A stretch of DNA of 64,000 nt. Origin: Bacteroidales bacterium (GTDB lineage: Bacteria > Bacteroidota > Bacteroidia > Bacteroidales > P3). Within the stretch, counting starts at the first letter, position 1. Every line of letters starts with the position of its first letter. Made by a program: the position numbers and the translations under genes. Positions 3,985-60,515 of the stretch are shown here, piece by piece. The DNA lies in NCBI GenBank assembly GCA_017429685.1, contig JAFROL010000041.1, positions 26,846 through 90,845 on the forward strand, in the 5' to 3' direction. The notes under the pieces are model-generated. The model was not told the DNA's origin. It did not search any database and saw only the letters and a list, made by a program, of their open reading frames with translations.

Positions 3985-6420
3985 ATGAAGAAATTATTTT
4001 TGGAAAACAAGCATAATCCTTGGTTCTGGCTGTTTGTCGCTTTGGCTGGCGCGCTGCTGGTGGCAATGCCGCTAATGAGCCTCGATGCAGGCAACAGCGG
4101 CGACGAGGACAAGTTCCAGATTCCCCAGGGCCGTTTCGTGATGGACTATTTCCACAGTGACGGCGCCGACACAACCTGTATGCAGGATGTGGTGACTCTG
4201 AACGGGAAGGAGCAGAGCTGGAACCTGAAATATTACGGCTGCTCGTTCGATGTGGTCACCGAATGGATCAACCAGACTTTCGGCATAGACGACATTGCCC
4301 GCACGCGTCACGTGTGCAACTCGCTTATGGGCTGGCTGATAGTCTTTTTCGGGGCAATGATAGCCTACCGTATCGGTGGCTGGCGTGCCGGATTTTTCAC
4401 AATGCTGTTGCTCTTTCTTTCGCCACGCCTGTTGGGCCATTCATTCAACAATCCCAAGGATATACCGCTGGCTGCTGGCATCATTATGTCGATATATTAT
4501 ATGATGATGTTCTTCCGTCAGGTGACTCCGCAGGTTGTTGCCGATACCGCAGCTTCGAAGGGCAAAAAAGCATTGTCGAAGGTCCAGTATCCGGAGCAGG
4601 CCTTTTCGGACAAGGTTACCCGCTGGTTAGCCATATTCCTTTTCGTTCTGGCATCGCCATTCCTCATCAAGGCGACGGGCGTCGGCTTTACGGTGCTGCT
4701 TGTAGCACTTTTCGTAGTTGTTCTGATGATAAAGGATGCCCCAAAGTTCAACCCGTTGACCCTTGCTATGCTGGCTCTTTCGCTGGCTTTGGCAGTAAGC
4801 AATCGTATCGGCGGTTTGATTGCCGTCGGATATATGGGATTATGGGGTTTGCTGTGGCTTATCCGCTACGGCAAGAGCGTCGGTGGAGCTACGATAGGCA
4901 AGACCATCGTTGCAGCGCTGATGGTGTGTGCCCTAGGTTTCTTTGGAGGTCTGCTGCTGTGGCCCTATGCCTTGCAAAGCCCCATTCACAACAGCATCGA
5001 AAGCTTCAAGCTGATGTCGCAATTTGATGTTCAGCTGCGCCAGCTGTTTGAGGGTTCTATGGTTATGTCGAGCAGTCTTCCGTGGTACTATACGCCCAAG
5101 TTTATGCTTATGACCATTCCGCTGGCTGTTATCGTCGGCTGGCTGATGTATCCTTTCTTTGGAGCCTTCAAGCGCGATCGTCGCATCGAAAGCATAATGG
5201 TTTATTTCTGTTTCCTTTTCCCTGTAATATGGATTGTGGTTACAGGAGCTAATGTCTATGGCGGCTGGCGTCATTCGCTGTTTGCTTATCCGCCAATGGC
5301 TGTTGCCGCCGGATTGGGCTTTGATGCCTTTGCCGAGTGGGCCGGCCGGAAGAGCGGAAAGCGGAAAGCGGAAAACGGAAAGCGCGGTGTTGCGTGGGTC
5401 GAACTGGTTTGTTCGCTGGTGCCTGTGTGTCTGCTGGTGCCTCCGGCATTGCACACTGTCCGTAACCACCCCTACGAATATGTCTATTTCAACAAGTTGG
5501 CTGGTGGCGTGAAGAATGCTTTCGGTCACTACGAGCTCGACTACTACTACCACTCGATGCGCGAAGCCACCGAGTGGGTCGTAGCCAATGCCGCTCCCAA
5601 GTCCGATGGCGAGAAAACAATCGTGGGCTCGTGGCACATCGAGTCGACCAAGTATTTCCTGCGCAACGACACGTCGCGCTTCGAAACGCGCTTCGTGCGA
5701 TGGGCCCAGCGCTATGAGTTCGATTGGGATTATCTCGTGTTCCCACTTACAGGTGTCAGTGGTGATTATCTGCTTGGCAACAACTTCCCGCCCAAGGACT
5801 GCGTCCACACCGTCGATGTCGACGGAATGCCTATCGCTGTGGTGCTGAAACGAGCCACCAAGGACGACTATTACGCTATGCAGCAGCTCAAAGCTGGTAA
5901 TGTCGATAGTGCCATCGTGCTGTTCGGCAAAGCCCTCGAAGTGAATCCCGTTAACGAGACGGCACTCAGTAATCTGGCAAACATCAGTCTTCAGCAAGGC
6001 AAAACCGACGAGGCTGCCGACTACTGCAACCGCATCTTGGCTGTCGATCCGTCGAATCCCCAGGCCGGACAGATGCTTGTGTATGCCTACCTTAATAGTG
6101 GACGCCAGCAAGAGGCTGCAGCATTGATTGACAAGATGAAAGCCAATCCTGTGAACGCATTCCCGTTCACTATCACGGCGCAGCTCTATGCCCAGCAAGG
6201 CAACATCAACGGCGCCATTAGTGAACTGAATGCTATGCTCGACCGCGGCTTGATGGACCAGGACGCTCTGAACCTGTATGTCCAGCTGCGTATGTCGCAG
6301 GGCAGCGACCAGAACAGTGCGTTATACGGTTTCTATGCAGCCTATGCCAACGGCCTTGAAAAGAGTGGCGACAAGAAATCAGCCGAACAGATTCGTAAAC
6401 AGATAAACGGTGGAAGATGA
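3985..6420 (+). CDS. GT39/ArnT-like multi-pass membrane glycosyltransferase with C-terminal TPR repeats
   Basis: An 811-residue inner membrane protein. The N-terminal part (about residues 10-520) has around ten hydrophobic segments and resembles phospholipid-carrier-dependent glycosyltransferases. Its first outer loop holds an acidic pair (SGDEDKF), and LSPRLLGHSFNNPKDIP is a conserved-looking motif of that group. Residues from about 627 onward form TPR units (KAGNVDSAIVLFGKALEVNP, then QGKTDEAADYCNRILAVDP). A run of heptamer repeats at 5354-5384 is read in frame as SGKRKAENGKR in a loop between membrane segments. The stop overlaps the next start (ATGA). The preceding GT2 enzyme could supply the lipid-linked sugar; substrate and acceptor are not evident. 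Confidence 0.75.
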   Translation: MKKLFLENKHNPWFWLFVALAGALLVAMPLMSLDAGNSGDEDKFQIPQGRFVMDYFHSDGADTTCMQDVVTLNGKEQSWNLKYYGCSFDVVTEWINQTFGIDDIARTRHVCNSLMGWLIVFFGAMIAYRIGGWRAGFFTMLLLFLSPRLLGHSFNNPKDIPLAAGIIMSIYYMMMFFRQVTPQVVADTAASKGKKALSKVQYPEQAFSDKVTRWLAIFLFVLASPFLIKATGVGFTVLLVALFVVVLMIKDAPKFNPLTLAMLALSLALAVSNRIGGLIAVGYMGLWGLLWLIRYGKSVGGATIGKTIVAALMVCALGFFGGLLLWPYALQSPIHNSIESFKLMSQFDVQLRQLFEGSMVMSSSLPWYYTPKFMLMTIPLAVIVGWLMYPFFGAFKRDRRIESIMVYFCFLFPVIWIVVTGANVYGGWRHSLFAYPPMAVAAGLGFDAFAEWAGRKSGKRKAENGKRGVAWVELVCSLVPVCLLVPPALHTVRNHPYEYVYFNKLAGGVKNAFGHYELDYYYHSMREATEWVVANAAPKSDGEKTIVGSWHIESTKYFLRNDTSRFETRFVRWAQRYEFDWDYLVFPLTGVSGDYLLGNNFPPKDCVHTVDVDGMPIAVVLKRATKDDYYAMQQLKAGNVDSAIVLFGKALEVNPVNETALSNLANISLQQGKTDEAADYCNRILAVDPSNPQAGQMLVYAYLNSGRQQEAAALIDKMKANPVNAFPFTITAQLYAQQGNINGAISELNAMLDRGLMDQDALNLYVQLRMSQGSDQNSALYGFYAAYANGLEKSGDKKSAEQIRKQINGGR
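5354..5384 (+). repeat. RCGGAAA heptamer array inside a coding sequence
   Basis: Four heptamer units (GCGGAAA three times, ACGGAAA once) plus GCG lie in frame within the GT39-like gene, encoding a basic loop of about ten residues (SGKRKAENGKR). The same unit fills many intergenic gaps in this window. Confidence 0.9.
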
Positions 6421-16883: not shown

Positions 16884-18134
16884 ATGAACATAAAATCTAT
16901 TCCTGTACTTCTGCTCACTGGCTATCTTGGCAGTGGCAAAACAACTTTACTGAACCGCATCCTTTCCAACCGCCGCGGCATCAAATTCGCCGTCATCGTC
17001 AACGACCTCGGCGAAGTCAACATCGACGCCGACCTCATCGAAAAAGGTGGCGTAGTGGGCAAAAAGGACGACAACCTCGTGGCCCTGCAAAACGGCTGCA
17101 TCTGCTGCACCCTCAAAATGGACCTCATCGAGCAGCTGCGCGACATCACCAGTCAGCACCGCTTCGACTACATCGTCATCGAGGCCAGCGGCATCTGCGA
17201 ACCCGAACCCATAGCCCAGACCATCTGCTCCATACCCACAATGGGGCCGGAATACGTCAAGGACGGCATTCCCGTGGTCGACAGCATCGTCACCGTGGTC
17301 GACGCGCTGCGTATGAAGGACGAGTTCGGCAGCGGCAAGAACCTGCTCAAGCCCGGCCTGGCCGAGGACGACATCGAGAACCTCGTAATCCAGCAAATCG
17401 AGTTCTGCAATATCATCCTGCTCAACAAGGCCTCGGAGGTTGAACCAGCCGAATTGGGTCGCATCCGCGAAATAATCCGCGCCATACAGCCCAAGGCCGA
17501 AATCATCGATTGCGACTATTGCGACGTCGACTTCGACAAGATTCTGAACACGCGTCTGTTCGACTTCGACCGTGTGGCCACGTCGGCTGCCTGGATCGAC
17601 GCCATCGAGGGACACCACGAGGACGAGGACGAAGAACACGAGCATCATCACCACGATGACGAAGACGAAGAAGAAGACCATCACCACGACGAGCACGATG
17701 ATGACGAGCACGAGCACCACCACCACCATCATCACCATGACCACGACGACGAGGGCGAAGCCGAGGAATACGGCATCTCGACCTTTGTCTACTATCGTCG
17801 CGAACCGATGAATATCAGCCGTTTCGACGACTTCATCGCCCGCCGTTGGCCTAAGGGCGTCATACGCGCCAAGGGCATCTGCTGGTTCCTCTCCGAGCCC
17901 GACACCTGCTACCTTTTCGAGCAGGCCGGCAAGCAAGTGTCGTTGCGCGACACAGGCCAGTGGTACGCAACGATGCCCGACGAGGAGCTGCTTGACTTTA
18001 TGCGCCGCAACCCCGACCTGATGCGCGACTGGGACGACACCTACGGCGACCGTATGCAGAAGCTCGTCTTCATCGGCCAGCACCTCGACCGCGACGCCAT
18101 CACCGCCGAACTCGACGCCTGCCTGTCGAAGTAG
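16884..18134 (+). CDS. CobW/COG0523-family metallochaperone GTPase with a long His/Asp/Glu loop
   Basis: P-loop GTPase of the G3E family that inserts or delivers metal ions (zinc or others) to client proteins. The P-loop is GYLGSGKTTLLNRI (residues 13-26). The metal-binding GCICC motif has C72, C74 and C75, and the C-terminal CobW domain follows the linker. Between the domains (about residues 246-290) is an extreme His/Asp/Glu stretch including a run of eight histidines, well suited to binding divalent metal. The 416-residue length is normal for YeiR/ZigA-like members. The TAG stop shares its last base with the first heptamer of the repeat array that follows. Confidence 0.9.
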   Translation: MNIKSIPVLLLTGYLGSGKTTLLNRILSNRRGIKFAVIVNDLGEVNIDADLIEKGGVVGKKDDNLVALQNGCICCTLKMDLIEQLRDITSQHRFDYIVIEASGICEPEPIAQTICSIPTMGPEYVKDGIPVVDSIVTVVDALRMKDEFGSGKNLLKPGLAEDDIENLVIQQIEFCNIILLNKASEVEPAELGRIREIIRAIQPKAEIIDCDYCDVDFDKILNTRLFDFDRVATSAAWIDAIEGHHEDEDEEHEHHHHDDEDEEEDHHHDEHDDDEHEHHHHHHHHDHDDEGEAEEYGISTFVYYRREPMNISRFDDFIARRWPKGVIRAKGICWFLSEPDTCYLFEQAGKQVSLRDTGQWYATMPDEELLDFMRRNPDLMRDWDDTYGDRMQKLVFIGQHLDRDAITAELDACLSK

Positions 18135-18256
18135 CGGAAAGCGGAAAACGGAAAGCGGAAAGCGGAGAACGGAAAACGGAAAGCGGAAAACGGAAAACGG
18201 AAAGCGAGGCAGACGCGCCAGCCACTAACAAATTAACACATTAACGAATTAACTCA
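18134..18256 (+). repeat. Composite repeat module: heptamers, GC-rich linker, octamers
   Basis: 18134-18210 is about ten RCGGAAA heptamers with single-base variants. 18207-18224 is the linker GAGGCAGACGCGCCAGCC. 18223-18256 is four TAACnnAT octamers ending 6 bp before the rsmG ATG. The module fills the entire gap between the CobW-type gene and rsmG. Confidence 0.95.
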
Positions 18257-18262
18257 TTCGAA

Positions 18263-18889: not shown

Positions 18890-18908
18890 TCATTGTCTCG
18901 TATTGACG

Positions 18909-18970
18909 TACTAACGCCTTTGAGGCCGCGTCAGCCTCTAACGCATTAACACAATAACGCACTAATGCAT
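18909..18970 (+). repeat. Repeat module: linker and octamers only
   Basis: GAGGCCGCGTCAGCC (about 18922-18936) is followed by TAACGCAT/TAACACAA/TAACGCAC octamer-like units up to 18970. The heptamer part seen in the other modules is missing here. It lies between rsmG and the Sel1-repeat gene. Confidence 0.8.
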
Positions 18971-22435: not shown

Positions 22436-22530
22436 GCTTTTCCGCTTTCCGTTTTCCGCTTTTCGTTTTCCGTTTTCCGTTTTCCGCTTTCCGTTTTCCG
22501 CTTTCCGTTTTCCGCTTTCCGTTTTCCGCT
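22436..22530 (-). repeat. Heptamer array directly after the GH2 stop codon
   Basis: About thirteen units of the RCGGAAA heptamer read on the minus strand. The array begins at the TAA stop of the GH2 gene (TAA-GCGGAAA). Confidence 0.95.
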
Positions 22531-24632
22531 TATTTGTTGTACAGGTCGTTCAGGGTGCGGACGACGACGGTTGTTGGGGTGGCGGTGGCGTCTTGGGGGA
22601 TGCCGTAACCCAGTGTGTTGCCCATCTCGACGGGGGCGGGGATGAAGCGGACGGTGACTTGTTGCCCTTTCTTGAGGTCGAAGAAGTTGCGGTTGAAGTG
22701 GCCGTGACGGAAGGGGCGGGGCTCGATGCAGACGTCGTAGAGGTCGCTCAGGGCGCGGATGGTTACTGTCAGTACGCCGTCTTCAACGCGCTGGTTAAAA
22801 GTGTATTGCGCCTTGTCATAGTGGCGGTCTTTGGGGTATGTGGCATAGTACTGCTGCCATTCGTCCAAACTCCGTTCCAGACTTTCCGCTTTCCGCTTTC
22901 CGCTTTCCGCTTCAAAAAGCGCTTTTGCGCGGTAGTGGAGCGCCTTCCAGTTGCCGTAGTAGTCGATTGAGGACCAGCTGGCTACGGGCCAGCTGTCGTT
23001 AAGCTGCCAGTAGAGTGTGCCGGCGCAGCGCGGGTCGGCGATATGGCAGAGGATGCCGTAGCCGGTGCCCCAGGCCTGGAGCAGCTGGCTGACGTAGGCG
23101 TAGTCCGTGAGCGACAGGGTGCGGCTGTCTAAACCGTAGTAGCGTTGCATCGCCTTGTCGATGATTTCGCGGCCGCGAGCGTGCTTCTGGTGGTTGCGCA
23201 GGGTGGGGGAGTCGATGTCGAGCTGGTCGGCGGATGTGAACTGTCGGATGCTGGAAATCAGAGGATAGCTTTGGAATCCGTATTCCGACATAAAGCGGCC
23301 GGTTTTTTCCTTGTACATTTCGAATGGCTGCTCGCCCCACCATACGCCCCAATAGTGGCTGTCGCCGTGGGTGGTGCATTCGGGATGGCCCCAGCCATAG
23401 AGCGGCGAGGTGGTGATGTAGGGGCGATGCATTGGATCGCAGTCTCTTACGGCTTGCGCAAGGATGCTGGTCGAGCTGGTGTTGCTGGTGGTGCCGGGGT
23501 AGCCGAAGATGGTGTCCATCGCCTTCTCCAGCCGGGCGCGCTGCTCTGGCGTCCAGTTGAATTGTCCTTGCCAGCCCCAGTCTTCCCATCCGTTCTTGAC
23601 CTCGTTGTTGCCGCACCAGAGGACGATGCAGGGGTGGCGTGCAATGCGGCTGACGTTCTCGTAGGCCTCGCGTTTGATTGATTCGAGCATCTCGGGGTCG
23701 TCGGGATAGAGCATAGTGGAGAAGTTGAAGTCCTGCCACACCATCAGCCCCAGCGAGTCGCATAGGTCGTAGAACAGGTCGTGCTCGTATATGCCGCCGC
23801 CCCAAATGCGTATCATATTGAATCCTGCCTCCTTGGCGGAGCAGAGCAGGTAGCGGTAGCGGGCCGCCAGCTGGGGCGACGTTGCCGGGAAGGTGTGCGC
23901 CGGAATCCAGTTGGCGCCTTTGATGAAGAGGGGTTTGCCGTCGCGGTAGAAGGCAAAGCTTTGGCCGATGGAGTCGGGCTGCTGGCGGAACTCGACGGGG
24001 CTGCTCGTAGGACTAGCATTTTTAGTAAGACTAGTACTACTAGAAGTACTAGTATCATTAGTTATATACACCTCTTTCCATATTCCGCAGGTTGGCAGCT
24101 TGGCTCCCCAGTCCCAGCCTTGCTGGTAGGGGGCTATGCGCGTGAAAGCGCGCCGGTCGGGCAGGGTGATGCCGTAAATGGATTGATTGTATTCGTCTTG
24201 GAGAGGGAAAAAGGTTATCTGTATGCGGTCGCAGTCCTCGGGCAACTCCATCGTGTTTTGAACGAACATATTGTTCTCTGTCAGCACGTGTGACTCCTCG
24301 CCGTGATAGAGGTTGATAAGGCAATCGCCCGCAAGTCCTTCGAAAACAATCCAATGCTTTTTGCCTTTGGGCAGATTCAGGCTGCTGATGTCTACCTGAT
24401 AGGTCCACATCTCGTCGGCAATCCAGCGGACGCTGTCCTCGTTGGTGGCGAGGTATGGGTCGGGAATGAGTCCGTTGGCCGTCAGGTCGGTGTGGATGAA
24501 TCCCGGCACGGAGGCGGGATACCATTTGTCCTGATACTTGAATTGCCAGTCGGTCAGGTATATACGGTCGGCCTTCTGCGTCGAGCAGGCGGCAAACAAC
24601 AGTGTGGCGACGATAAATAATAATTTCTTCAT
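22530..24632 (-). CDS. GH2 beta-mannosidase-like lipoprotein lacking a normal second domain
   Basis: Exo-acting glycoside hydrolase family 2 enzyme expected to release mannose from beta-mannosides. The signal peptide ends in LLFAACS, a lipobox. The N-terminal jelly-roll runs to GIWKEVYI near residue 189. The TIM barrel begins at PLFIKGANWIPAHTF and keeps the acid/base Glu in LWCGNNEVKNG (about 344) and the nucleophile Glu in RFMSEYGFQ (about 448). The Ig-like domain normally between them is missing, replaced by about 25 Ser/Thr-rich residues coded by 9-bp repeats. At 700 residues it is about 150 short for the family. A heptamer insertion (about residues 573-583) adds AESGKRKAES. Activity is uncertain. 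Confidence 0.85.
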   Translation of the reverse strand: MKKLLFIVATLLFAACSTQKADRIYLTDWQFKYQDKWYPASVPGFIHTDLTANGLIPDPYLATNEDSVRWIADEMWTYQVDISSLNLPKGKKHWIVFEGLAGDCLINLYHGEESHVLTENNMFVQNTMELPEDCDRIQITFFPLQDEYNQSIYGITLPDRRAFTRIAPYQQGWDWGAKLPTCGIWKEVYITNDTSTSSSTSLTKNASPTSSPVEFRQQPDSIGQSFAFYRDGKPLFIKGANWIPAHTFPATSPQLAARYRYLLCSAKEAGFNMIRIWGGGIYEHDLFYDLCDSLGLMVWQDFNFSTMLYPDDPEMLESIKREAYENVSRIARHPCIVLWCGNNEVKNGWEDWGWQGQFNWTPEQRARLEKAMDTIFGYPGTTSNTSSTSILAQAVRDCDPMHRPYITTSPLYGWGHPECTTHGDSHYWGVWWGEQPFEMYKEKTGRFMSEYGFQSYPLISSIRQFTSADQLDIDSPTLRNHQKHARGREIIDKAMQRYYGLDSRTLSLTDYAYVSQLLQAWGTGYGILCHIADPRCAGTLYWQLNDSWPVASWSSIDYYGNWKALHYRAKALFEAESGKRKAESLERSLDEWQQYYATYPKDRHYDKAQYTFNQRVEDGVLTVTIRALSDLYDVCIEPRPFRHGHFNRNFFDLKKGQQVTVRFIPAPVEMGNTLGYGIPQDATATPTTVVVRTLNDLYNK
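22882..22912 (-). repeat. Heptamer array inside the GH2 gene
   Basis: Four heptamers on the minus strand are read in frame as EAESGKRKAES, between the barrel and the C-terminal beta domain. Confidence 0.9.
24000..24063 (-). repeat. 9-bp NCTAGTNNT repeats inside the GH2 gene
   Basis: Read on the minus strand, six or seven 9-bp units (ACTAGTACT, TCTAGTAGT, ACTAGTCTT, GCTAGTCCT and variants) encode TSx tripeptides (TSTSSSTSLTKNASPTSS). They sit where the Ig-like domain of GH2 enzymes should be. This unit is not seen elsewhere in the window. Confidence 0.8.
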
Positions 24633-24644
24633 AATTTTTGAAAT

Positions 24645-24734
24645 TAATACGTTATTGCGTTAGTGGCTGACGCAGTTTTCCGCTTTCCGCTTTCCGTTTT
24701 CCGCTTTCCGTTTTCCGCTTTCCGCTTTCCGCTT
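24645..24734 (-). repeat. Composite repeat module (minus orientation)
   Basis: In the direction of transcription: heptamers (24734-24676), linker ACTGCGTCAGCCAC (about 24676-24663), then octamer-like TAACGCAA units (to 24645). It fills the gap between the DUF486 gene and the GH2 start, the same order as the plus-strand modules. Confidence 0.9.
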
Positions 24735-24741
24735 AGTAGGT

Positions 24742-25119
24742 CTATTCATTTTTCCAGAAGGCGAAGATGACGGCGAGCAGGATGAAGGCGAAGCTGACGA
24801 GGTGGTTCCAGCGGATGGGCTCGCTTTTGAAGACGGTGGCGACGATGATGGTGAAGACCGTCAGCGAGATGCACTCGGCCAGGATTTTGAGCTGCATCAG
24901 TGAGAAGGGACCGCCGTTGATCTGGCTGCCGATGCGGTTGGCGGGAATCATAAAGCTGTACTCGAAGAAGGCTACGCCCCACGACGACAGGATGATGAGT
25001 ATCAGAGGCCAAGAGGTGTTGATTTTCATTTCGGTCAGCTTCAGGTTGCCGTACCAGGCAAAGGTCATAAAGACGTTGCTGACGATGAGCAGGAGTATGG
25101 TAGATAGAGCTTTGGGCAT
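24742..25119 (-). CDS. DMT-superfamily DUF486 membrane protein
   Basis: A 125-residue inner membrane protein with four hydrophobic segments (about residues 5-22, 37-55, 80-97, 105-121) typical of the DUF486 family, a four-helix relative of small drug/metabolite transporters. Recognisable family sequence includes FMTFAWYGNLK, WGVAFFEYSFMIPANRIG and LKILAECISLTVF. No substrate is known for the family. It lies on the minus strand between cinA (64 bp upstream, across an AGTTGAA repeat) and the GH2 gene. Confidence 0.85.
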   Translation of the reverse strand: MPKALSTILLLIVSNVFMTFAWYGNLKLTEMKINTSWPLILIILSSWGVAFFEYSFMIPANRIGSQINGGPFSLMQLKILAECISLTVFTIIVATVFKSEPIRWNHLVSFAFILLAVIFAFWKNE

Positions 25120-27446: not shown

Positions 27447-27506
27447 TAACGAAAACCAAAACGAAAACGAAAACAAAGCTTCGCACGAAAACCAAAACGA
27501 AAAATG
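27447..27506 (+). repeat. ACGAAA/ACCAAA hexamer array
   Basis: Hexamer-like units (ACGAAA, ACCAAA, ACAAAG) in two blocks separated by GCTTCGCACGAAAACC. The CTTCGCACGAAAACCAAAA core resembles the arm of the post-purL hairpin and the sequence near 61865-61890. Confidence 0.8.
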
Positions 27507-45490: not shown

Positions 45491-45534
45491 GTTCTTATAT
45501 CGTTCTTATATTGTTCTTATATCGTTCTTATATT
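45491..45534. repeat. Four tandem 11-mers GTTCTTATAT(C/T)
   Basis: Units at 45491, 45502, 45513 and 45524 alternate in the last base (C, T, C, T). The following GAGGTATGGGAAC looks like a decayed inverted copy. The same unit forms a near-perfect hairpin at 57053-57105. Confidence 0.9.
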
Positions 45535-47239: not shown

Positions 47240-47242
47240 GAA

Positions 47243-47418
47243 ATTAAGGGGAGCTAAGGGAAGTTAAAGGAAGTTAGAGGGAAGTTAAGGGACAAATGCA
47301 CTTGCTGGTCACTATTGTCCTTTAACTTCCCTTAACTTCCCTTAACTTCCCTCTAACTTCCTTAATATCCCTCTAACTTCCCTTAATATCCCTCTATCTT
47401 CCCCCTTAACTCCCCTTA
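47243..47418. repeat. Inverted decamer arrays (GGAAGTTAAG ... CTTAACTTCC) between convergent genes
   Basis: The left arm (about 47248-47293) has GGAAGTTAAG-type units. The right arm (about 47328-47418) has ten or more CTTAACTTCC-type units on the same strand. A 35-nt spacer with GGGACAAATGC and ACTATTGTCC separates them. The whole could fold into a long hairpin between the sufB and mltG stops and may act as the terminator for both. Confidence 0.85.
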
Positions 47419-47419
47419 A

Positions 47420-48502
47420 TCATTTGTATATCTTCCGGCGGTTCATTTCGGCGTGGAAAGCGGCGGCGTTGGCGTTGTGTTGTGCCAGCGTGCTGGCAAA
47501 GTTGTGGCGTCCGCTGAAGTCGGCGCGTGCGCAGAAATAAAGGTAGTCGGTCTGCTTGTTGGCCAAGACGGCGTCGATCGAGGCTGCCGACGGTATGCAT
47601 ATCGGGCCGGGAGGCAGTCCGCGGTGTTTGTAGGTGTTGTACGGACTTTCGGCCTCGATGTGCACGTTGAGCAGGCGGCGCAGGCTGAAGTCGCCCACGG
47701 CATATTTCAGAGTGGGGTCGGCTTGCAGCAGCATCCCTTTGCGGATGCGGTTGAGGTAGACGCTTGCAATGTCGGCCTTCTCGTCGTTCTTGTTGGTCTC
47801 CTCTTCGACAATCGATGCCAGCGTTGTCACCTCGTCGGTGGTGAGGTTCAGCGCTTTGCACTTGTTGCGCCGCTCGTTGTTCCAGAAACGGTCGCTTTCT
47901 TTCTGCATCCTGTCGAGCAGCTTGCGGGGTGTGGTGTTCCAATAGATTTCGTAGGTGTTTTGCGGGAAGATGGCGATGATGGTCTGCGGGGTGTGGCCGT
48001 AGGCGGCGCATAGGCTGTCGTCTGACAGCAGTTGCAGCAGCGTGTCGCCCTCCATTTCAAGCCGTTGGCCTAAGTATTCGCATAGCTGCTGTTTGGTGCG
48101 GTGCTTGCCGATGGTGAGTTTCAGGGCGTCCTGGTTGCCGTAGTAGAGCTTGGTGAGGGTGCGCCAGGTGTTGGCGTGCGGCTCTATGATGTAGCGTCCG
48201 CCCTTGACGTTGTCGCGGTAGTGGCGCAGACGGGCCAGGGTGTTGAAAACGGCACCGTTGCCGATGCACGAGTGGGCGTCGAGCGAATCGACTACGGCCG
48301 CATAGTCCGATCCTGTGGGGATGAGGATTGTCTCGGTTTCGCTGTTGCCCATCTTCTGTCCGCGCAGGACGAGCAGTGCGGCGATTGCACCTGCCAGCAG
48401 CACTGCGGCGACAATAGCTATGGTGATGTGCTTTCCGCCAGTGGTTTGTTTGTCTCCTTTTTTCGTTGTCTTCGTCTTTGTTTTCGTTTTAGTTTTCGTC
48501 AT
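47420..48502 (-). CDS. mltG: endolytic transglycosylase MltG (YceG-like)
   Basis: Inner-membrane lytic transglycosylase that cleaves nascent peptidoglycan strands and sets glycan length. The membrane helix is at about residues 26-46 (HITIAIVAAVLLAGAIAAL). The YceG domain holds the catalytic Glu in LASIVEEETNKNDEK and ASVYLNRIRKGMLLQADPT. The ATG at 48502 overlaps the upstream GNAT stop (ATGA), which decides the start and gives 360 residues. The cytoplasmic N-terminus is a Lys-Thr run (MTKTKTKTKTKTTKKG) encoded by ACGAAA-type hexamers. Confidence 0.92.
   Translation of the reverse strand: MTKTKTKTKTKTTKKGDKQTTGGKHITIAIVAAVLLAGAIAALLVLRGQKMGNSETETILIPTGSDYAAVVDSLDAHSCIGNGAVFNTLARLRHYRDNVKGGRYIIEPHANTWRTLTKLYYGNQDALKLTIGKHRTKQQLCEYLGQRLEMEGDTLLQLLSDDSLCAAYGHTPQTIIAIFPQNTYEIYWNTTPRKLLDRMQKESDRFWNNERRNKCKALNLTTDEVTTLASIVEEETNKNDEKADIASVYLNRIRKGMLLQADPTLKYAVGDFSLRRLLNVHIEAESPYNTYKHRGLPPGPICIPSAASIDAVLANKQTDYLYFCARADFSGRHNFASTLAQHNANAAAFHAEMNRRKIYK
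48460..48502 (-). repeat. ACGAAA/ACTAAA hexamer array forming the mltG N-terminus
   Basis: On the minus strand: ACGAAA, ACTAAA, ACGAAA, ACAAAG, ACGAAG and ACAACG follow the ATG and encode alternating Thr-Lys. The same units lie in the nadC-yihY gap and in the post-purL hairpin. Confidence 0.8.
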
Positions 48503-51373: not shown

Positions 51374-53038
51374 ATGCGTCAGGCTTTCAGACTTATATGG
51401 CAATGCGATAAGCGGGGATTCGTCCTCAAGCTTCTCTACACCGTGTGCAACAGCCTTTTGCCGCTGATTAACCTGTACGTGCTCAAGCTGTTGGTCGACG
51501 CCATAACGACAGCTGTCGAATCGAAGCCTGTCGACGCTATGCTTTGGGGTGCACCCCTTGCGGGATATATTGCAGCCTTTTGCGGCATTATGCTGCTCAA
51601 CCGCTGGATCGGGGTGCTCAACACCGTCAACAACGACATTCTTACCCAGCGACTTACCGACTACATCAACAACATCATCCAGACCCAGTCGGTCAGGCTC
51701 GATATGGCCTATTACGACAACCCCGACTATCACGACACGTTCCACCGCGCCCAGCAGGAAGCCGCCTTCCGCCCCATCCGCATACTGGAAAATACGGTCA
51801 CCGTTGTCGGCTCGGTAGCAGCGCTGGCTGGCATTGCCGCTATGCTGCTGGCATCCTCGTGGCAGGTTGTGGCGGTGATGCTTGTCGCCGTGCTGCCATC
51901 GTTCGCAGTGCGCCTCTACAAGTCGCGACGCATCTACCGTTTCCGCCGTGAGACAACGCAGGATATGCGTCGCACGAACTATTATGGTCAATTGCTCACC
52001 AACCGCATCTTTGCCAAAGAGGTGCGCGCCTTCGGCCTGGCCGACCACTTCCGCCGCCTCTATGTCGACATCCGCGCACGACTGGTGCAGCAACTCCTGG
52101 CCATATCGCGACGTCTGGCACTTTTCGACGCCATCACGGCTATCTTGGAAACCGCTGCAATGGCATTGGTAATCATATTCTTGATACGTCCCGCCATCAG
52201 TGGCGCAATGACCATCGGCTCGTTCGTGATGCTCTTCGAGGCCTTTCGTCGTGGACAGGGCCACCTCAGCAGCCTGGTGAGTGGAGTTAGTGGTTTGTAT
52301 GAACATAAATTGTTTATAAACAACTTGTTTGATTTTCTTTCTTTAACTCCCTCTATTGTTTCGCCAGCCGATCCCGTTCCATTTCCGGAGAGGGTGGAGG
52401 AGGTCTGTTTCGACGACGTAACGTTCTTATATCCTGATATGAAGCAACCTGTATTGTCACACTTTTCGCTCACCGCACGGCGTGGCGAGGTGACCCTCAT
52501 CGAAGGCGAAAACGGACGTGGTAAGACGACGATGCTCAAGCTTTTGTTGCGTCTCTACGACCCGCAGCAGGGCAGTGTCCGCATCAACGGCATTGATATA
52601 CGCCGTTTCGACGTTGCCGAGTTGCGTCGCAATCTTAGCGTCATTTTTCAGGATTATGTGCAGTTCTGTTTCACGGCGCGTGAAAATATAGTCTTCGGCG
52701 ACATCGGCAATGCCGACGATGCTCAACGGCTGGCGCAGTCCATTCGCGCCGCTGGTGCCGATGCCGTTGTGGATGGTTTGGACCACGGATTGGACACCCC
52801 TTTGGGTCGACAATTCGATGGTGGTGAGGAACTTAGTATGGGACAGTGGCAGCGCATTGCCCTTGCCCGTCAGCTTTATTCCAAGGCTCAGGTGCTGCTT
52901 TTCGACGAGCCTACGGCTTGGATGGATGCAGAGGCTCGTGCCAATTTCCGGCAAACCCTTGAGGCTCTGCGTGCCGACCACGTCATTCTCCTTGTCCAAC
53001 ACCAGACGGTGGAAGCGGAAAGCGGAAAGCGAGGCTGA
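51374..53038 (+). CDS. ABC transporter, fused permease and ATPase
   Basis: 554-residue half-transporter of the exporter type. The membrane domain (residues 1-310) has about six helices (KLLYTVCNSLLPLINLYVL onward). The ATPase domain has Walker A GENGRGKTTMLKLLL, signature ELSMGQWQRIALARQ, Walker B VLLFDEPTAWMDAEA and H-loop VQHQT. Substrate unknown; it may work as a homodimer, since no partner is adjacent. The last residues (VEAESGKRG) are encoded by the heptamer array, and the TGA stop lies in the GACGCG linker of the repeat module. Confidence 0.88.
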   Translation: MRQAFRLIWQCDKRGFVLKLLYTVCNSLLPLINLYVLKLLVDAITTAVESKPVDAMLWGAPLAGYIAAFCGIMLLNRWIGVLNTVNNDILTQRLTDYINNIIQTQSVRLDMAYYDNPDYHDTFHRAQQEAAFRPIRILENTVTVVGSVAALAGIAAMLLASSWQVVAVMLVAVLPSFAVRLYKSRRIYRFRRETTQDMRRTNYYGQLLTNRIFAKEVRAFGLADHFRRLYVDIRARLVQQLLAISRRLALFDAITAILETAAMALVIIFLIRPAISGAMTIGSFVMLFEAFRRGQGHLSSLVSGVSGLYEHKLFINNLFDFLSLTPSIVSPADPVPFPERVEEVCFDDVTFLYPDMKQPVLSHFSLTARRGEVTLIEGENGRGKTTMLKLLLRLYDPQQGSVRINGIDIRRFDVAELRRNLSVIFQDYVQFCFTARENIVFGDIGNADDAQRLAQSIRAAGADAVVDGLDHGLDTPLGRQFDGGEELSMGQWQRIALARQLYSKAQVLLFDEPTAWMDAEARANFRQTLEALRADHVILLVQHQTVEAESGKRG

Positions 53039-53105
53039 CGCGTCAGCACTAACACACTAACACACTAACACACTAACACAATAACACAATAACACAATAA
53101 CTAGT
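53015..53105 (+). repeat. Composite repeat module overlapping the ABC transporter 3' end
   Basis: Heptamers 53015-53034 (coding), linker GAGGCTGACGCGTCAGC with the perfect palindrome CTGACGCGTCAG (53035-53046), and about seven octamers (CACTAACA, then CAATAACA) to 53100. It ends at the TrmH-type ATG at 53107. Confidence 0.95.
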
Positions 53106-53106
53106 T

Positions 53107-53646
53107 ATGTCCTACAAACTTACAACTCAGGAAATGAATCGTCTGACGGTAGACGAGTTCCGTGCCAGCCAGAAGATTCCGCTGACGGTTGTGCTCGATA
53201 ACGTACGCAGTCAGAATAATATAGGCTCCGTGTTCCGTACTGCCGATGCATTACGCGTCGGCCGGATTGTGCTTTGTGGCATTTGTTCCACTCCGCCGCA
53301 TCGCGAGATTCACAAGACGGCGCTGGGTGCGGAGGAAAGCGTGGACTGGAGCTATTGCGAGGATACGGTGGATTGCGTGCGAGCGCTTAAGGAGCAGGGG
53401 TATAGGATATATGCCGTCGAGCTGGCCCACAACAGCCTGAAACTGGGCACCGATCCTATCGCTGCCGACGGTCCCGTGGCTCTTGTCCTGGGCAACGAAA
53501 TTGACGGGGTGCAGGAGGAGGTTATGGAACTTTGCGACGGAGCGATAGAGATTCCGCAATACGGCACAAAGCATTCGTTGAATGTTAGTTGCGCTGCCGC
53601 GATAGTGATGTGGGAAATGACAAAAATTATGAGAGCGGAGAACTGA
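53107..53646 (+). CDS. TrmH/SpoU family RNA 2'-O-methyltransferase
   Basis: SPOUT-class methyltransferase that methylates a ribose 2'-OH in tRNA or rRNA. 179 residues, the catalytic domain only. Motif 1 is LDNVRSQNNIGSVFRTADAL, motif 2 LVLGNEIDGVQEEVM and motif 3 IPQYGTKHSLNVSCAAAI. Without an N-terminal RNA-binding domain the exact target is open. The gene is flanked on both sides by repeat modules; its last codons (RAEN then TGA) lie at the edge of the following heptamer array. Confidence 0.9.
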   Translation: MSYKLTTQEMNRLTVDEFRASQKIPLTVVLDNVRSQNNIGSVFRTADALRVGRIVLCGICSTPPHREIHKTALGAEESVDWSYCEDTVDCVRALKEQGYRIYAVELAHNSLKLGTDPIAADGPVALVLGNEIDGVQEEVMELCDGAIEIPQYGTKHSLNVSCAAAIVMWEMTKIMRAEN

Positions 53647-53648
53647 AA

Positions 53649-53849
53649 GCGGAAAGCGGAAAGCGGAGAACGGAAAGCGGAAAACGGAAAGCGGAGAACG
53701 GAAAGCGGAAAGCGGAAAGCGGAAAGATGATTCGTATTGTCCCTTAACTTCCTTTAACTTCCCTTAACTTCCCTTAACTTCCAATCATAACTTCCCTTAA
53801 CTTCCTTTAACTCCCCTTATTAACGAATTAACAAATTAACGATTTGACA
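53649..53849 (+). repeat. Composite repeat module with decamers
   Basis: Heptamers 53649-53726, linker GATGATTCGTATTGTCC (about 53725-53741), CTTAACTTCC decamers with an internal AATCATAACTTCC (to 53818), and TAACnnAT octamers to 53849. The same order, inverted, is found at 58503-58700. Confidence 0.95.
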
Positions 53850-54203
53850 ATGACAAAAGAAGAAGCAATAGAACGAGCAAAAGCGTTGCACAAACAGGGG
53901 TGCAACTGCTGTCAGTCGGTGGTGATGGCATTCGCCGAGAAGCTGCCCATCGACGCTGAGAATTTAATGAATGTTGCGGCTCCCTTTGGCCGCGGAATTG
54001 CCGGATGTCGCGAGGTGTGCGGCTGCGTCAGCGGAATGGCTATGGTATGCGGCCTGACGGGACATACTGGCGAAGTGCGGACGCTGATAGAGAAGTTCCG
54101 TGCCGAAGAGGGCGACATCGTCTGTGGCCGCCTGCTGCAGATGGGCAAGCGTCCCTGCAACGAGATGGTCGGCGACGCCGCCGGTATGCTGGCGGAAATG
54201 TGA
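53850..54203 (+). CDS. C_GCAxxG_C_C family redox-type protein
   Basis: 117 residues from the ATG at 53850. It has the family's cysteine pattern: GCNCCQSVVMAF near residue 16-27, AAPFGRGIAGCREVCGCVSG near 48-67 (the G-C-x-x-x-C-G-C core), and a late Cys in KRPCNEM. Members are found in many anaerobes, some near redox or metal enzymes, but biochemical function is not established. It lies between repeat modules with no operon partner. Confidence 0.88.
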   Translation: MTKEEAIERAKALHKQGCNCCQSVVMAFAEKLPIDAENLMNVAAPFGRGIAGCREVCGCVSGMAMVCGLTGHTGEVRTLIEKFRAEEGDIVCGRLLQMGKRPCNEMVGDAAGMLAEM

Positions 54204-54206
54204 AAA

Positions 54207-54334
54207 GCGGAAAGCGGAAAGCGGAAAGCGAAGAACGAAAAACGGAGAACTGAGAACGGAGAACGGAGAGCGGAAAGCGAAACAGACGCGCCAGCCACTA
54301 ACACATTAACATATTAACGAATTAACAAATTAAC
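54207..54334 (+). repeat. Composite repeat module
   Basis: Heptamers 54207-54281 including ACTGAGA and ACGGAGA variants, linker AACAGACGCGCCAGCCAC (about 54281-54298), octamers to 54334. It ends 2 bp before the ATG of the CoA-transferase gene. Confidence 0.95.
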
Positions 54335-54335
54335 T

Positions 54336-55610
54336 ATGATACAATATACAACTGCAGAAGAGGCTGTGAAGGTTGTTCGGTCGGGCGACCATATACATTG
54401 GCCGTGTGTGAGCGGTGCTCCGGAGCATCTGATCGAGGCTTTGGTGAGGCGTGCCGGCCAGCTGCGCGACGTGACGATAAGTCATTTTTACACCGAAGGT
54501 TATGCCGACTATACGCTGCCGGAATATGAGGGTGTTTTCCATCTCGACTCGTTTTTCGTTGGTGGCAATGTGCGGTCGGCGACGCAGGCTGGACGTGCCG
54601 ACTACATACCCTGTTCGCTCAGCGAGACACCGCGTATGATAAGCAGTGGCGCTGTGGGCTGCGATGTTGTCTTTCTGATGGTCAGTGAGCCCGACGCCGA
54701 GGGTTATGTGTCGCTGGGCACGTCGGTGGACTATATGCCCGAGGCCATCGAGCGGGCGCGTGTGGTGGTGGCGCAGGTGAACGGATATGTGCCTTATACA
54801 TATGGCGATAGCCGCATTGCGGTGAGCAAGATAGATGCCTTTGTGCGTCACGATGCCCCGTTGCGTCCGGCGGCTCCGTTGCCGCTGAGCGATGTGGACC
54901 TCGCCATAGGTCGCTACTGTGCGGAGCTTATCCCCGACGGTGCGACGCTTCAGATAGGCATCGGCAACATACCCACGGCGGTGCTGAGCCAGCTGGGCGA
55001 CCACAAGGACCTTGGCGTTCACTCGGAGATGTTCTCGGACAGCGTGATACCGCTTGTCGAGAAGGGAGTGATCAACGGCAGGTGCAAAACGACGGACTGC
55101 GGCAAGCTGGTGGCGATGTTCCTAAAGGGGTCGCAGAAGCTGTATGATTTTGTGGACCACAACGATGCGGTTCTGATGCGCGATGTGGGGTATACGAACA
55201 ATCCGGCCGTCATTGCAAGCAATCCGCGTGTGGTGGCGCTGAATTCGGCGATAGAGATTGACCTGAGCGGCCAGGTCTGTTCCGACTCGATTGGGAGCAG
55301 GATTTTCAGCGGCAGCGGCGGCCAGCTTGATTTTATGCTCGGTGCCACGTATAGTGATGGTGGTGTGCCGATTATTGCGATGCCTTCGATTACGTCGAAG
55401 GGTGTGAGCAAGATCGTGCCGACGCTGACGCCAGGTGCCGGTGTGGTGACTCCGCGCACGCTGGTGCGATGGGTAGTGACCGAGCAGGGAGCCGTCGACC
55501 TCTATGGGCTGAATCTGGAACAGCGGGCCAAAGCGCTGATAAGCATCGCCCATCCGTCGGTGAGGGAGGAGTTGGAAGCGGAAAGCGGAGAGCGGAAAGC
55601 GAAAAACTGA
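54336..55610 (+). CDS. acetyl-CoA hydrolase/transferase family protein
   Basis: Class I CoA transferase of the 4-hydroxybutyrate/acetate CoA-transferase group, which moves CoA between short acids or hydrolyses acetyl-CoA. 424 residues. Motifs are LQIGIGNIPTAVL, HSEMFSDSVIP with the likely catalytic Glu, and IFSGSGGQLDFMLGA. The C-terminus (AHPSVREEL, then EAESGERKAKN) is extended by about eleven residues coded by heptamer repeats. In gut-type anaerobes this enzyme often serves short-chain fatty acid production; no pathway neighbours are present to specify the acid. Confidence 0.9.
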   Translation: MIQYTTAEEAVKVVRSGDHIHWPCVSGAPEHLIEALVRRAGQLRDVTISHFYTEGYADYTLPEYEGVFHLDSFFVGGNVRSATQAGRADYIPCSLSETPRMISSGAVGCDVVFLMVSEPDAEGYVSLGTSVDYMPEAIERARVVVAQVNGYVPYTYGDSRIAVSKIDAFVRHDAPLRPAAPLPLSDVDLAIGRYCAELIPDGATLQIGIGNIPTAVLSQLGDHKDLGVHSEMFSDSVIPLVEKGVINGRCKTTDCGKLVAMFLKGSQKLYDFVDHNDAVLMRDVGYTNNPAVIASNPRVVALNSAIEIDLSGQVCSDSIGSRIFSGSGGQLDFMLGATYSDGGVPIIAMPSITSKGVSKIVPTLTPGAGVVTPRTLVRWVVTEQGAVDLYGLNLEQRAKALISIAHPSVREELEAESGERKAKN

Positions 55611-55771
55611 GAAGTGAGAAGTGAGAAGTGAGAACGGAGAGCGGAGAACTAAGAACTGAGAACTGAGAGCGGAGAACTGAGAACTGAGAACTGAGAGCGG
55701 AAAGCGGAAAACCGCGTCAGCCACTAACGAATTAACTAATTAACGAATTAACAAATTAACAAGTTAACACT
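55578..55771 (+). repeat. Composite repeat module, longest heptamer part
   Basis: Heptamers 55578-55712 include GCGGAAA, GCGGAGA, AACTGAG and AAGTGAG types; the linker is CCGCGTCAGCCAC (about 55712-55724), and octamers run to 55771. The first units code the CoA-transferase C-terminus; the last octamer-like unit runs into the TTG start of the HD-domain gene. Confidence 0.95.
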
Positions 55772-56995: not shown

Positions 56996-57052
56996 GGGTG
57001 GATGGCTGGGGGAGATGGCGTGTTGGGTTGCCTTTTCGCATAGTTTTTTTAT

Positions 57053-57105
57053 GCAGTTCTTATATAGTTCTTATATTCGCGATATAAGAACGATATAAGA
57101 ACTGC
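57053..57105. repeat. Near-perfect hairpin made of GTTCTTATAT units
   Basis: The left arm (57053-57076) and right arm (57082-57105) pair over 24 bp with one mismatch around a TCGCG loop. Each arm holds two GTTCTTATAT units. It is related to the four tandem units at 45491-45534. Confidence 0.9.
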
Positions 57106-58504: not shown

Positions 58505-58768
58505 CATTGTTAATTTGTTAATTCGTTAATAGGGGGGAAGTAAAAAAGGAAGTTAAATGGAAGTTAAGGGAAGTTAAAGGGGAAGTTATGATTGGAAGTT
58601 AAGGGAAGTTAAAGGAAGTTAAGAGAAGTTAAGGAACAATACGAATTATCTTTCCGTTTTCCGCTTTCCGCTCTCCGTTCTCCGTTCTCAGTTCTCCGTT
58701 CTCAGTTCTCCGTTTTCAGTTTTCCGTTTTTCGCTCTCAACTTTCAACTCTCAACTTTCAACTTCAAA
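58503..58768 (-). repeat. Composite repeat module in inverted orientation
   Basis: On the plus strand: ATTTGTTA octamers (58508-58531), GGAAGTTAAG decamers with GGAAGTTATGATTGG (58540-58637), the linker AACAATACGAATTATC (58636-58651), TTTCCGC heptamers with TTCTCAG variants (58651-58735), and TTTCAAC/TCTCAAC units (58736-58766). Apart from the last part this is the reverse complement of the 53649-53849 module. Confidence 0.93.
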
Positions 58769-59489: not shown

Positions 59490-59744
59490 TTGAGAAGTTT
59501 GGAGAAGTTAAAAAGGGAGTTAAAGGGAAATAAAAGGGGAAGTTATGATTGGGAGTTAAGGGAAGTTAAGGAATGTTATGATTGGGAGTTAAGGGAAGTT
59601 AAGAGAAGTTAAGAGAAGTTAAAGGACAATACATAGTGAATTGTGAATAGACCGCGGCAGCCTCGCTTTCCGCTTTCCGCTCTCCGCTTTCCGTTTTCCG
59701 CTCTCCGCTTTCAGTTTTCCGCTTTCCGCTTTCCGCTTTCCGCT
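59490..59744 (-). repeat. Repeat module between convergent genes (decamers and heptamers)
   Basis: On the plus strand: AGTTGAG/AAGTTAAG decamer-type units with two GTTATGATTGGGAGTTAAGG blocks (59500-59625), GACAATACATAGTGAATTG, the linker CCGCGGCAGCCTCG (about 59652-59665), and TTTCCGC heptamers to 59744. The heptamers start directly at the elbB TAA. Confidence 0.9.
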
Positions 59745-60427
59745 TATCCAATCCATTCTGCCAGACGGTTTACCATATTGGCGGCTCCGTCGAAAATCTG
59801 GCTTATATGTGTTGCCACCATATAGGCCGGCGTCGTGATGATGCGGTGCTCGTCGTCGACGCAGATGTCCGTAGGACCGCATTCCACAACGTTGCATCCG
59901 AAGCCTTGGGCAACCTTGGCTGCAGGATTGTCAACACTTCCCAATGTTAGGCTTATGCCTTGTTTGCCAAACACTTTAGCCAAAACAGTCGGAGCAATGC
60001 ACATCGCTACAATAGGCTTTTTGGCACGATTGGTCTCCAGCAGTGCATCCATCACGCTGTCAATAACCGTCATCTGAGGACCGTCGAAAGCAAAAGTGCT
60101 CAGATTGCGGGCAGCTCCCATTCCGCCAGGCATCGCCAGCGCGTCGTAGTCGGCGGCACGGTATTCGCTGAGGGGTTTGATATTGCCGCGGGCAATTCGG
60201 GCGCTCTCGACAAAGATGTCCCTCTGTTCGATGTCGACAACATTGCCCATATCCTCTTCGTCGTCAACAACGTCGACGTGGGGGACAACCTCGAAAAAAC
60301 CTTCAGGGGCAAAACATTGATACTGCCACCCCTTGCGATCAATGGCCAACAGCAGGCCCAGGGTCTCCTGCAGCTCGCTGCCGTCGCGGTTGCCGCAACC
60401 AGAAAGAATTACTGCTATCTTCTTCAT
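59744..60427 (-). CDS. elbB: isoprenoid biosynthesis glyoxalase ElbB
   Basis: DJ-1/PfpI-superfamily protein with glyoxalase activity reported for the E. coli homologue; linked historically to isoprenoid levels. 227 residues. Motifs are KKIAVILSGCGNRDGSELQE, ADYDALAMPGGMGAARNLS and the nucleophile elbow IVAMCIAPTVLAK with its Cys. The C-terminal VATHISQIFDGAANMVNRL is typical. The TAA stop is immediately followed by heptamer repeats. The gene upstream on the same strand is a PLP lyase, 93 bp away across a dyad repeat element. Confidence 0.93.
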   Translation of the reverse strand: MKKIAVILSGCGNRDGSELQETLGLLLAIDRKGWQYQCFAPEGFFEVVPHVDVVDDEEDMGNVVDIEQRDIFVESARIARGNIKPLSEYRAADYDALAMPGGMGAARNLSTFAFDGPQMTVIDSVMDALLETNRAKKPIVAMCIAPTVLAKVFGKQGISLTLGSVDNPAAKVAQGFGCNVVECGPTDICVDDEHRIITTPAYMVATHISQIFDGAANMVNRLAEWIG

Positions 60428-60446
60428 TGTTATGATGGTTTAAAAT

Positions 60447-60515
60447 GAATAGTGACCTGTGACCCGTAAATCGAGCGCGTTCGTGTCACGATTCACAGGT
60501 CACAGGTCACAATTC
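60447..60515. repeat. GTGACC-type dyad element, copy 3
   Basis: AGTGACCTGTGAC (about 60451-60463) and GTCACAGGTCAC (about 60498-60510) are inverted around CGAGCGCGTTCGTGTCAC. GAATAGTGACCTGTGACC is shared with copy 2. Confidence 0.85.

Follow-up and report, generated by a model that had tools for sequence, protein, structure and literature searches.

The cyanobacterial short tandemly repeated repetitive (STRR) sequences are intergenic heptanucleotide arrays that occur in many copies and are described as arrays of a single unit. Direct repeats of the heptamer TAACTGA have been reported from Beggiatoaceae, Cyanobacteria, and five Bacteroidetes, and a translational role was proposed for them in Beggiatoaceae (MacGregor 2015, PMC4679880). 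For repetitive extragenic palindromic (REP) sequences, it has been suggested that heterodimers are shielded against clearance (PMC3733652). Here, a 64,000-nt stretch of a Bacteroidales genome (GCA_017429685.1, contig JAFROL010000041.1, positions 26,846 to 90,845; the window) was analyzed together with the genome that holds it (G000, 2.65 Mb) and its relatives for modules composed of short tandem-repeat families. The modules are built from interchangeable tandem-repeat halves that face a hinge, and the same arrays occur in frame within protein genes.

Repeat families and pairing at the hinge

The H family consists of AGCGGAA-type heptamers, defined for counting as A(A/G)C(G/T)GA(A/G). The O family consists of TAAC octamers (TAACnnAT), which are read backwards when taken as a half-element. 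The other families are T (GTGACCA/GTGAATA-type heptamers), D (GGAAGTTAAG decamers), and S (GTTGAAA units). The linker, defined as GCG(T/C/G)CAGCC, is one half of the near-palindrome GGCTGNCGCGNCAGCC; many of the spacers, when written out, prove to be halves of it. The hinge core is CGCG for H and O, and also for T facing O, and it is GGACAATAC for D. To the left of the hinge stand H, reversed O, or T; the same families stand to its right in the opposite orientation.

The order of H, then GCGTCAGCC or GCGCCAGCC, then TAAC octamers was found, as given in a preliminary description of the window, in the four gaps of 53015-55771 and at 18134-18256 and 24645-24734. The 53015 copy reads GCGTCAGCA. 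The variant with decamers was confirmed as a D module at 53634-53850, and D modules related to it were found at 58505-58767 and 59538-59745. The octamers had been said to end at the next start codon; they end about 0 to 16 nt from it, but the start is not always reached. The H arrays of 53013 and 55577 begin within the upstream reading frame and supply the C-terminus of that protein. The window contains 13 H arrays (3 or more units), 8 O arrays (3 units), 4 linkers joined to CTAAC, and 5 D pairs. For 20 dinucleotide shuffles of the window the mean is 0.0 for H, O, linker, and D, and a GTGA triplet appeared once.

The same patterns recur across G000. Overlapping pattern matches number 90 for an H 20-mer (reversed control, 0), 64 for the exact 15-nt junction of linker and CTAAC (control, 0), 92 for this junction with up to one mismatch (control, 3), 142 for an octamer triplet, and 61 for a decamer pair. 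Many copies with a conserved linker had been expected, and the modules had been argued not to be independent simple repeats; the 64 exact junctions and the genome-wide recurrence of junctions and order bear out both statements. In G000, repeat matches lie at most a few hundred bases from the ends of several contigs (C1:167, C11:138567-138626, C17:10260, C18:281, and C35:180276). Since contig ends adjoin repeats, the repeats may break the assembly, and the copy numbers may be lower bounds.

A 541-kb sample of G000, consisting of the window and 40 stretches picked around pattern matches, was analyzed more closely. Genes were called by a dicodon gene caller (own script) trained on the sample. Arrays are held by 124 of 290 codirectional junctions in this enriched sample versus 11 of 33 in the unselected window.

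Neighboring arrays at most 60 nt apart are convergent in 91 cases in G000, tandem in 46, and divergent in 0, so that arrays are oriented toward the hinge. The corresponding counts for samples of nine other genomes are 16, 10, and 0, with 13 of the 16 convergent pairs from G042. Neighbors of equal family, taken from G000 and the other-genome samples, are convergent in 31 cases and divergent in 0. The commoner convergent pairings in G000 are H-O (30), O-T (15), T-T (12), D-H (11), and H-H (8); the rarer ones are O-O (5), D-T (4), O-S (3), H-T (2), and S-T (1). CGCG appears in the spacers of 28 of 30 H-O, 13 of 15 O-T, 5 of 8 H-H, and 4 of 5 O-O pairs, compared with 11.6% of random 30-mers, and the D hinge was found in 13 of 15 D-containing spacers. 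Equal pairs, folded as one example each, give near-perfect hairpins of -51.2 kcal/mol for T-T' (z -9.35), -54.1 kcal/mol for H-H' (z -8.43), and -57 kcal/mol for O-O' (z -11.23). Two H-O modules folded as RNA showed no structure exceeding chance (z +0.57 and +0.65), and neither did one T-O module (z -1.41) nor, in RsgA, the H stretch (z -0.58).

Several other repeats were observed. The 11-mers GTTCTTATATC occur at 57049-57102 and 45491-45534 of the window; those at 57049 stand in inverted orientation on either side of TTCGCGA and look like a further CGCG-hinged array pair. Hexamer arrays of AACGAA/AACCAA lie at 27448-27503 and 48466-48500, and also in stretches L151 of G082 and L130 of G042. 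A GCTTCGCACG linker accompanies the hexamer arrays at 27448 and in G042, and this module lies in frame within a G042 glycosyl hydrolase. At L045:3032 and L057:14030 (minus), a hinge followed by AATTCGTTGAAATTCGCGTTCCGC..GCGGAAC represents a further right-half family, outside the array tables.

Arrays between and within genes

An order fixed relative to transcription had been proposed, and it holds for 21 of 21 codirectional H-O pairs of the sample: H always adjoins the stop and O the start, with no pair reversed. The preferred order also prevails for T-O (11 to 3) and H-D (8 to 1). H lies almost always on the coding strand. Within 300 nt of genes, 71 of 78 H arrays face a gene 3' end, at a median of 1-2 nt past it, and 72 of 104 O arrays face a gene start. 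The fixed order is real, and behind it lies a flank preference of each half. This placement would suit regulatory intercistronic elements, with H behind the stop and O ahead of the start working at the mRNA level, for example, by uncoupling the translation of formerly abutting genes, comparable to the translational role proposed for the TAACTGA repeats. The strict H-O order, the H orientation of 71 to 7, the octamers that end near start codons, and the two H-O modules without RNA structure beyond chance count in favor of such a role; the presence of the same modules within protein genes counts against it.

The repeats had been described as intergenic, and confinement to the gaps was refuted by the genes called in the sample. 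Of 107 H arrays with at least three units, 39 overlap a called gene, in frame, over half or more of their length, a share that overstates the genome average because the stretches were picked around matches. Of these H arrays, 32 are internal (at least 45 nt from both gene ends), and in the G042 stretches 17 of 26 H arrays are internal to genes. The hosts include, by solved homologues, NqrF, dihydroorotase, MnmA, RsgA, Mfd, and biotin ligase (BirA) and, by Pfam, GH3, SpoU methylase, 4Fe-4S ferredoxin-like, rhamnosidase, and other proteins. In NqrF, 34 residues (291-324) stand between two halves that adjoin directly in 8a1t, and near residue 245 lies a second, shorter gapped stretch. A 21-residue H-derived stretch of RsgA is gapped against the solved homologue, and Mfd has 42 residues, reading H-hinge-H', versus 11 in 6x26. 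MiaB of G042 has about 15 extra residues relative to 7mjv, and biotin ligase has 12 relative to 3efs. NqrF, a rhamnosidase, and one protein without a Pfam match each contain a complete H-hinge-O module that is read through.

Among arrays of at least two units, 40 of 124 H arrays are internal versus 6 of 212 O, T, and D arrays combined. The usual H unit contains no stop in six frames, and every frame encodes one heptapeptide, KAESGKR forward and SAFRFPL reverse; this property would explain why H is tolerated in genes. Of the 32 internal arrays, 23 have a unit number equal to 1 mod 3, and 21 of them consist of exactly 4 units; among intergenic arrays the figure is 24 of 68. Octamers within genes read TCAC at all 6 stop-phase positions in five arrays (phases assigned by hand), and C appears at the same octamer position in 35 of 415 intergenic units. 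Because an open frame demands the change to TCAC, these octamers show read-through of otherwise regular arrays and are not an independent test. H arrays in genes are sense in 31 cases and antisense in 9. The sense peptide is hydrophilic and the antisense peptide hydrophobic, so that the sense excess may reflect tolerance.

Relatives and the origin of the modules

Exact patterns were searched in 99 genomes of the genus, G000 included, drawn from a larger group. Carriers number 12 for H, 18 for the linker, 49 for O, and 5 for D. G045 contains 91 H matches and zero O and linker matches; G021 and G094 contain 51 and 77 O matches, respectively, and zero H. Among 295 genomes of the order, none of them congeners, the H 20-mer was found in G000 only, and the reversed control gave 10 matches in three other genomes. 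The palindromic hinge appears in 5 of 393 genomes, with 11 sites in G000 and one in each of the other four, and its reversed control in three genomes. A contig scan for H..linker..CTAAC, which may have skipped G000 itself, returned 9 stretches, all from the Bacteroidales metagenome-assembled genomes (MAGs) RGIG6188 (sheep rectum) and UBA3724.

The operon of the TrmH, C_GCAxxG_C_C, CoA-transferase, and HD genes was compared in eight congeners by the distances between protein matches. Gap 1 is 2 nt in G069, G045, G005, G053, and G049; 8 nt in G082; 115 nt in G060; 160 nt in G042, with its own hinge and octamers; and 206 nt in G000. Gap 2 was measured in six relatives, no CoA-transferase match being found in the examined stretches of G042 and G049. 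It is 18-24 nt in G069, G045, G005, and G053 and 135 nt in G000; in G082 it consists of 68 nt of AACGAA-type hexamers, and in G060 it reaches about 1 kb. Gap 3 measures 41-129 nt in G045, G005, G053, and G082, 144 nt in G060, about 1.5 kb in G069, and 182 nt in G000. Orthologous sites are thus near-empty in some genomes and filled in others. Most loci shared by G042 and G000 reach 84-97% identity (L141 76%, L150/L068 82%), but the TrmH operon of G042 (L150, C178) only about 73%; this operon may lie on a foreign contig in the MAG or be a replacement.

NqrF of G000 was compared with the 29 best-scoring congeners among 87 genomes with a match. The loop before NEMIW contains H-hinge-O in G000, H-hinge-H' in G045, H with TCTCACA-type repeats in G060, and TCAATTT-type repeats in G034 and G049. 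The remaining 25 have other content, mostly short and long in G037 and G050. NqrF of G042 is 98% identical to that of G000 over residues 1-293, yet its loop is short and contains no module. With varied modules within one genus and a short loop in a 98%-identical species, the rate and the route of loop replacement become measurable. The 5' junction of NqrF holds O'-hinge-O before the start codon in G000 and is short in G042. A second, shorter, H-like stretch, TESGKRRAESGG, lies about 40 residues earlier (L040:3700-3713) in nine of the 30 genomes, partly eroded, and looks like an older copy. G045 and G053 carry, in CoA-transferase, an H-like stretch missing from G000; G060 and G005 have other, longer loops at this place.

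By a rough count over 55 kb in 11 blocks, one of them (L141/L047) only 76% identical and some of the absent arrays being two-unit matches, 20 of 45 G000 arrays are kept with the same family in G042 and 25 are absent or changed. The count used 10 of 15 G000/G042 stretch pairs; omitted were L138/L067 and L139/L058 (partly misaligned), L142/L045 (short), and the two divergent pairs of L150, one with L068 and one with the window. The G042 ortholog of the 24645 module is exactly one heptamer shorter and carries two substitutions in the stretch compared. In the alignment of window 24630-24745 with L130, the start codon past this H-linker-O module is ATG in G000 and an aligned ACG in G042. The gene at 22530-24632 keeps its H array in G042 and has there an additional 30-nt hexamer module, with the frame intact. 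In the gap at 18900, O in G000 is matched by GTGACCT-type repeats in G042, and the SpoU methylase gene of G042 is 165 nt longer, with H-hinge-filler-H-hinge and an open frame. The regulatory explanation is judged unlikely on these grounds as well: in relatives the corresponding junctions are nearly empty or filled by other repeats, and only 20 of the 45 arrays are kept between close species.

The preliminary description had regarded the modules as copies of one composite element, H-linker-O, which as a mobile element would copy whole. The many copies, the conserved linker, and the fixed order stand; the 30 H-O pairs in 541 kb, 28 of them with the CGCG core and four within genes, and the orthologous H-linker-O module conserved in G042 agree with such an element. 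Its unity does not stand. The families also occur apart, with H lacking O in G045 and O lacking H in G021 and G094, 61 of the 91 convergent pairs are other pairings, and three different second halves follow H at the one NqrF loop. H-O is the commonest among pairings of interchangeable halves, and a fixed composite is accordingly improbable.

The explanation we favor, with a little better than even confidence, is that of modular dispersed repeats: half-elements, each a tandem array with half a hinge, joined head to head. The repeats are probably non-autonomous. Copies would arrive through a process of little sequence specificity, and selection would retain them where both flanking genes survive, as at stop-start junctions, or where the frame stays open. 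Equal halves would pair as palindromes and mixed halves as modules of the H-hinge-O type; as a guess, mixed pairs may arise by template switching of the copied strand at the common palindromic hinge. Arrays may afterwards lengthen or shorten by slippage. By analogy with the protection from clearance suggested for REP heterodimers, the excess of H-O over H-H and O-O would fit, and that of T-T over H-T would not. A broader reading is offered tentatively, as a possibility: a kit of hinge-capped tandem-repeat half-elements is copied, paired, and spread to junctions and reading frames, and H, kept stop-free, remodels enzyme loops.

Several observations weigh against the modular reading or its extension to enzyme loops. 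The polarity of mixed pairs uses family orientations fixed from examples; that of equal pairs depends only on one sign per family. Exact CGCG appears in only 3 of 12 T-T' spacers. Clear target-site duplications were not found; the upstream site of NqrF shows at most a 4-nt ATGA repeat. The NqrF loop has also lost native sequence, so that the apparent insertion may be a replacement. The H-derived stretch of dihydroorotase aligns gapless to 2gwn and that of MnmA has only four gapped residues; these near-gapless alignments indicate replacements or short inserts. The AACTGAG variant, which has sense stops, is rarer within genes (5 of 164 units versus 46 of 520, p 0.016), a contrast that is partly circular because called genes cannot contain stops. 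The stop filter is also incomplete: although T has no stop on the antisense strand, none of its 65 arrays is internal. The strand bias of H and its proximity to stops are not explained by the stop-codon filter and could reflect a function at the RNA level. Finally, no mobilizing gene was found among the Y1 transposases and reverse transcriptases searched for.

A layout of two inverted repeats and a spacer would suit REP doublets forming hairpins (REPINs), moved by a Y1 REP-associated tyrosine transposase (RAYT). The inverted pairs, the hairpins of -51 to -57 kcal/mol in three equal pairs, the existence of REP heterodimers (PMC3733652), and the Y1 matches in G000 (2) and G045 (3) are consistent with this mechanism. 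It is nonetheless very improbable, since the units are tandem arrays and not single hairpins, and since no Y1 match was obtained in G042 (57 H matches) and one weak match in G082 (32 H matches), while G001 has 7 Y1 matches and no H. REPs have a GTAG or CGTC tag beside a single palindrome; the hinge GACGCGTCAGCC contains CGTC, but the T and D hinges lack it. Y1/RAYT was rejected as the driver because PF01797 counts do not track H counts, although G042 is 89% complete and a gene could be missed. Reverse transcriptase (PF00078) was rejected as well, with 0 matches in the main carriers G000, G042, G045, and G082; it is present in 4 of the 11 genomes searched (G060, G069, G021, and G049). Miniature inverted-repeat transposable elements have terminal inverted repeats and a target-site duplication; the symmetry is central here, the outer ends are variable, and a possible 4-nt repeat was seen at a single near-empty/filled pair. 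Slippage of simple sequence that acts locally and separately at every site, the least probable explanation, accords with the one-heptamer change at 24645, a 21-nt length change in two genes, and native charged loops that resemble H, but it is excluded as the origin of the hinged modules by the 64 exact 15-nt junctions at unrelated sites (reversed control, 0) and the 91 to 0 polarity, and it remains likely for the length changes. For the modular reading, the hinge grammar of inward polarity and mixed pairs at a common core provides a precise target for finding the machinery.

The coordinates of the modules and arrays are collected in Table 1. A 36-nt in-gene repeat unrelated to H was also observed at 17613-17744, within gene 16884-18134; CAC, GAC, and GAA codons would abound in it if it is read in frame.

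Table 1. Repeat modules and arrays of the window, in window coordinates
Feature	Position	Strand	Details
H-hinge-O	53013..53105	+	H 53013-53031, last codons of ABC transporter gene; hinge GGCTGACGCGTCAGC 53033-53047; octamers CACTAACA 53050-53105; TrmH start 53107
H-D-O module	53634..53850	+	H 53634-53724; AACTGA unit supplies TrmH stop; D hinge GATTCGTATTGTCCC; decamers 53740-53819; octamers 53819-53850
H-hinge-O	54205..54335	+	H 54205-54275; hinge ACGCGCCAGCC, of which 54288-54296 is GCGCCAGCC; octamers 54299-54334; CoA-transferase start 54336
H-linker-O	55577..55771	+	H 55577-55709 with AACTGAG units, from last CoA-transferase codons on; linker GCGTCAGCC 55714-55722; octamers 55725-55769
H-hinge-O	18133..18257	+	separates genes 16884-18134 and 18263-18889
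Hinge GAGGCCGCGTCAGCCTC and octamers	18922..18962	+	
H-hinge-O	24645..24734	-	
H array	22440..22530	-	immediately past stop of gene 22530-24632
H array, 4 units, in frame	22884..22911	-	inside gene 22530-24632 (glycosyl hydrolase 2-type domains)
H array, 4 units, in frame	5353..5380	+	inside ORF 3985-6420 (811 aa)
S (GTTGAAA units), H, D hinge, decamers, octamers	58505..58767	-	
H, half hinge GAGGCTGCCGCG, TTCACAATTCACTA stretch, D hinge and decamers	59538..59745	-	
D decamers, both orientations around GGGACAAATG...CTATTGTCC	47240..47419	.	left out of scripted pair counts
T-T' module: GTGACCT units, CACGAACGCGCTCG hinge, reversed units	60445..60513	-	

Comparison with known systems

The cyanobacterial STRR and the present repeats are both intergenic heptamers of many copies; STRR is a single-unit array by its usual description, whereas several families are paired here. 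The TAACTGA repeats resemble the present ones in their short tandem units, their patchy spread, and their occasional place beside other heptamers; they often lie just before starts, and here O arrays mostly face a gene start and H arrays a gene end. They differ in being one family, for which the passages compared describe no hinge, paired halves, or systematic in-frame use (PMC4679880). The units here are of the AGCGGAA, TAACnnAT, GTGACCA, and GGAAGTTAAG types and not TAACTGA.

Rickettsia palindromic elements (RPE) likewise comprise several families and in-frame copies in unrelated conserved genes, and the H-H' pairs here are palindromic. RPE are about 150 bp long (PMC10969869), whereas the arms here are tandem arrays, the halves are exchanged, and most of the sampled copies are intergenic. 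In-frame copies in unrelated genes are thus found here; a palindrome of about 150 bp is not, as the commonest pair, H-O, is non-palindromic and lengths vary. REP dimers and REPINs share inverted pairs, equal and mixed dimers, and hairpins of equal pairs (PMC3733652); the present units differ in being heptamer, octamer, or decamer arrays and show no relation to Y1 transposase counts.

The tandem repeats of Borgs are similarly both intergenic and in genes, turn over rapidly, and encode charged peptides (PMC9879509). Their in-gene units are always a multiple of three and virtually site-unique, whereas a 7-nt unit is reused genome-wide here. Palindromic amphipathic repeat coding elements (PARCELs) are also repeat-coding DNA with dyad symmetry spread in genomes; they differ in encoding 25-residue protein repeats in ORFs of unknown function, and the abstract does not mention intergenic modules (PMC2996958).

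A literature search on Bacteroidota, largely at title level and across few subscription journals, found neither this composite nor in-frame heptamers described. The preliminary statement that no description exists in Bacteroidota is thus retained with a caveat, as start-proximal TAACTGA heptamers are known with five Bacteroidetes carriers (PMC4679880). Tandem-array halves joined at a common hinge are absent from the portions of the TAACTGA, RPE, REP, Borg, and PARCEL descriptions that were compared. The present repeats tie together two phenomena that have been treated separately, intergenic heptamer arrays and in-frame selfish elements; a 7-nt unit can be both, in gaps and in genes, because it is stop-free in every frame and always encodes the same peptide.

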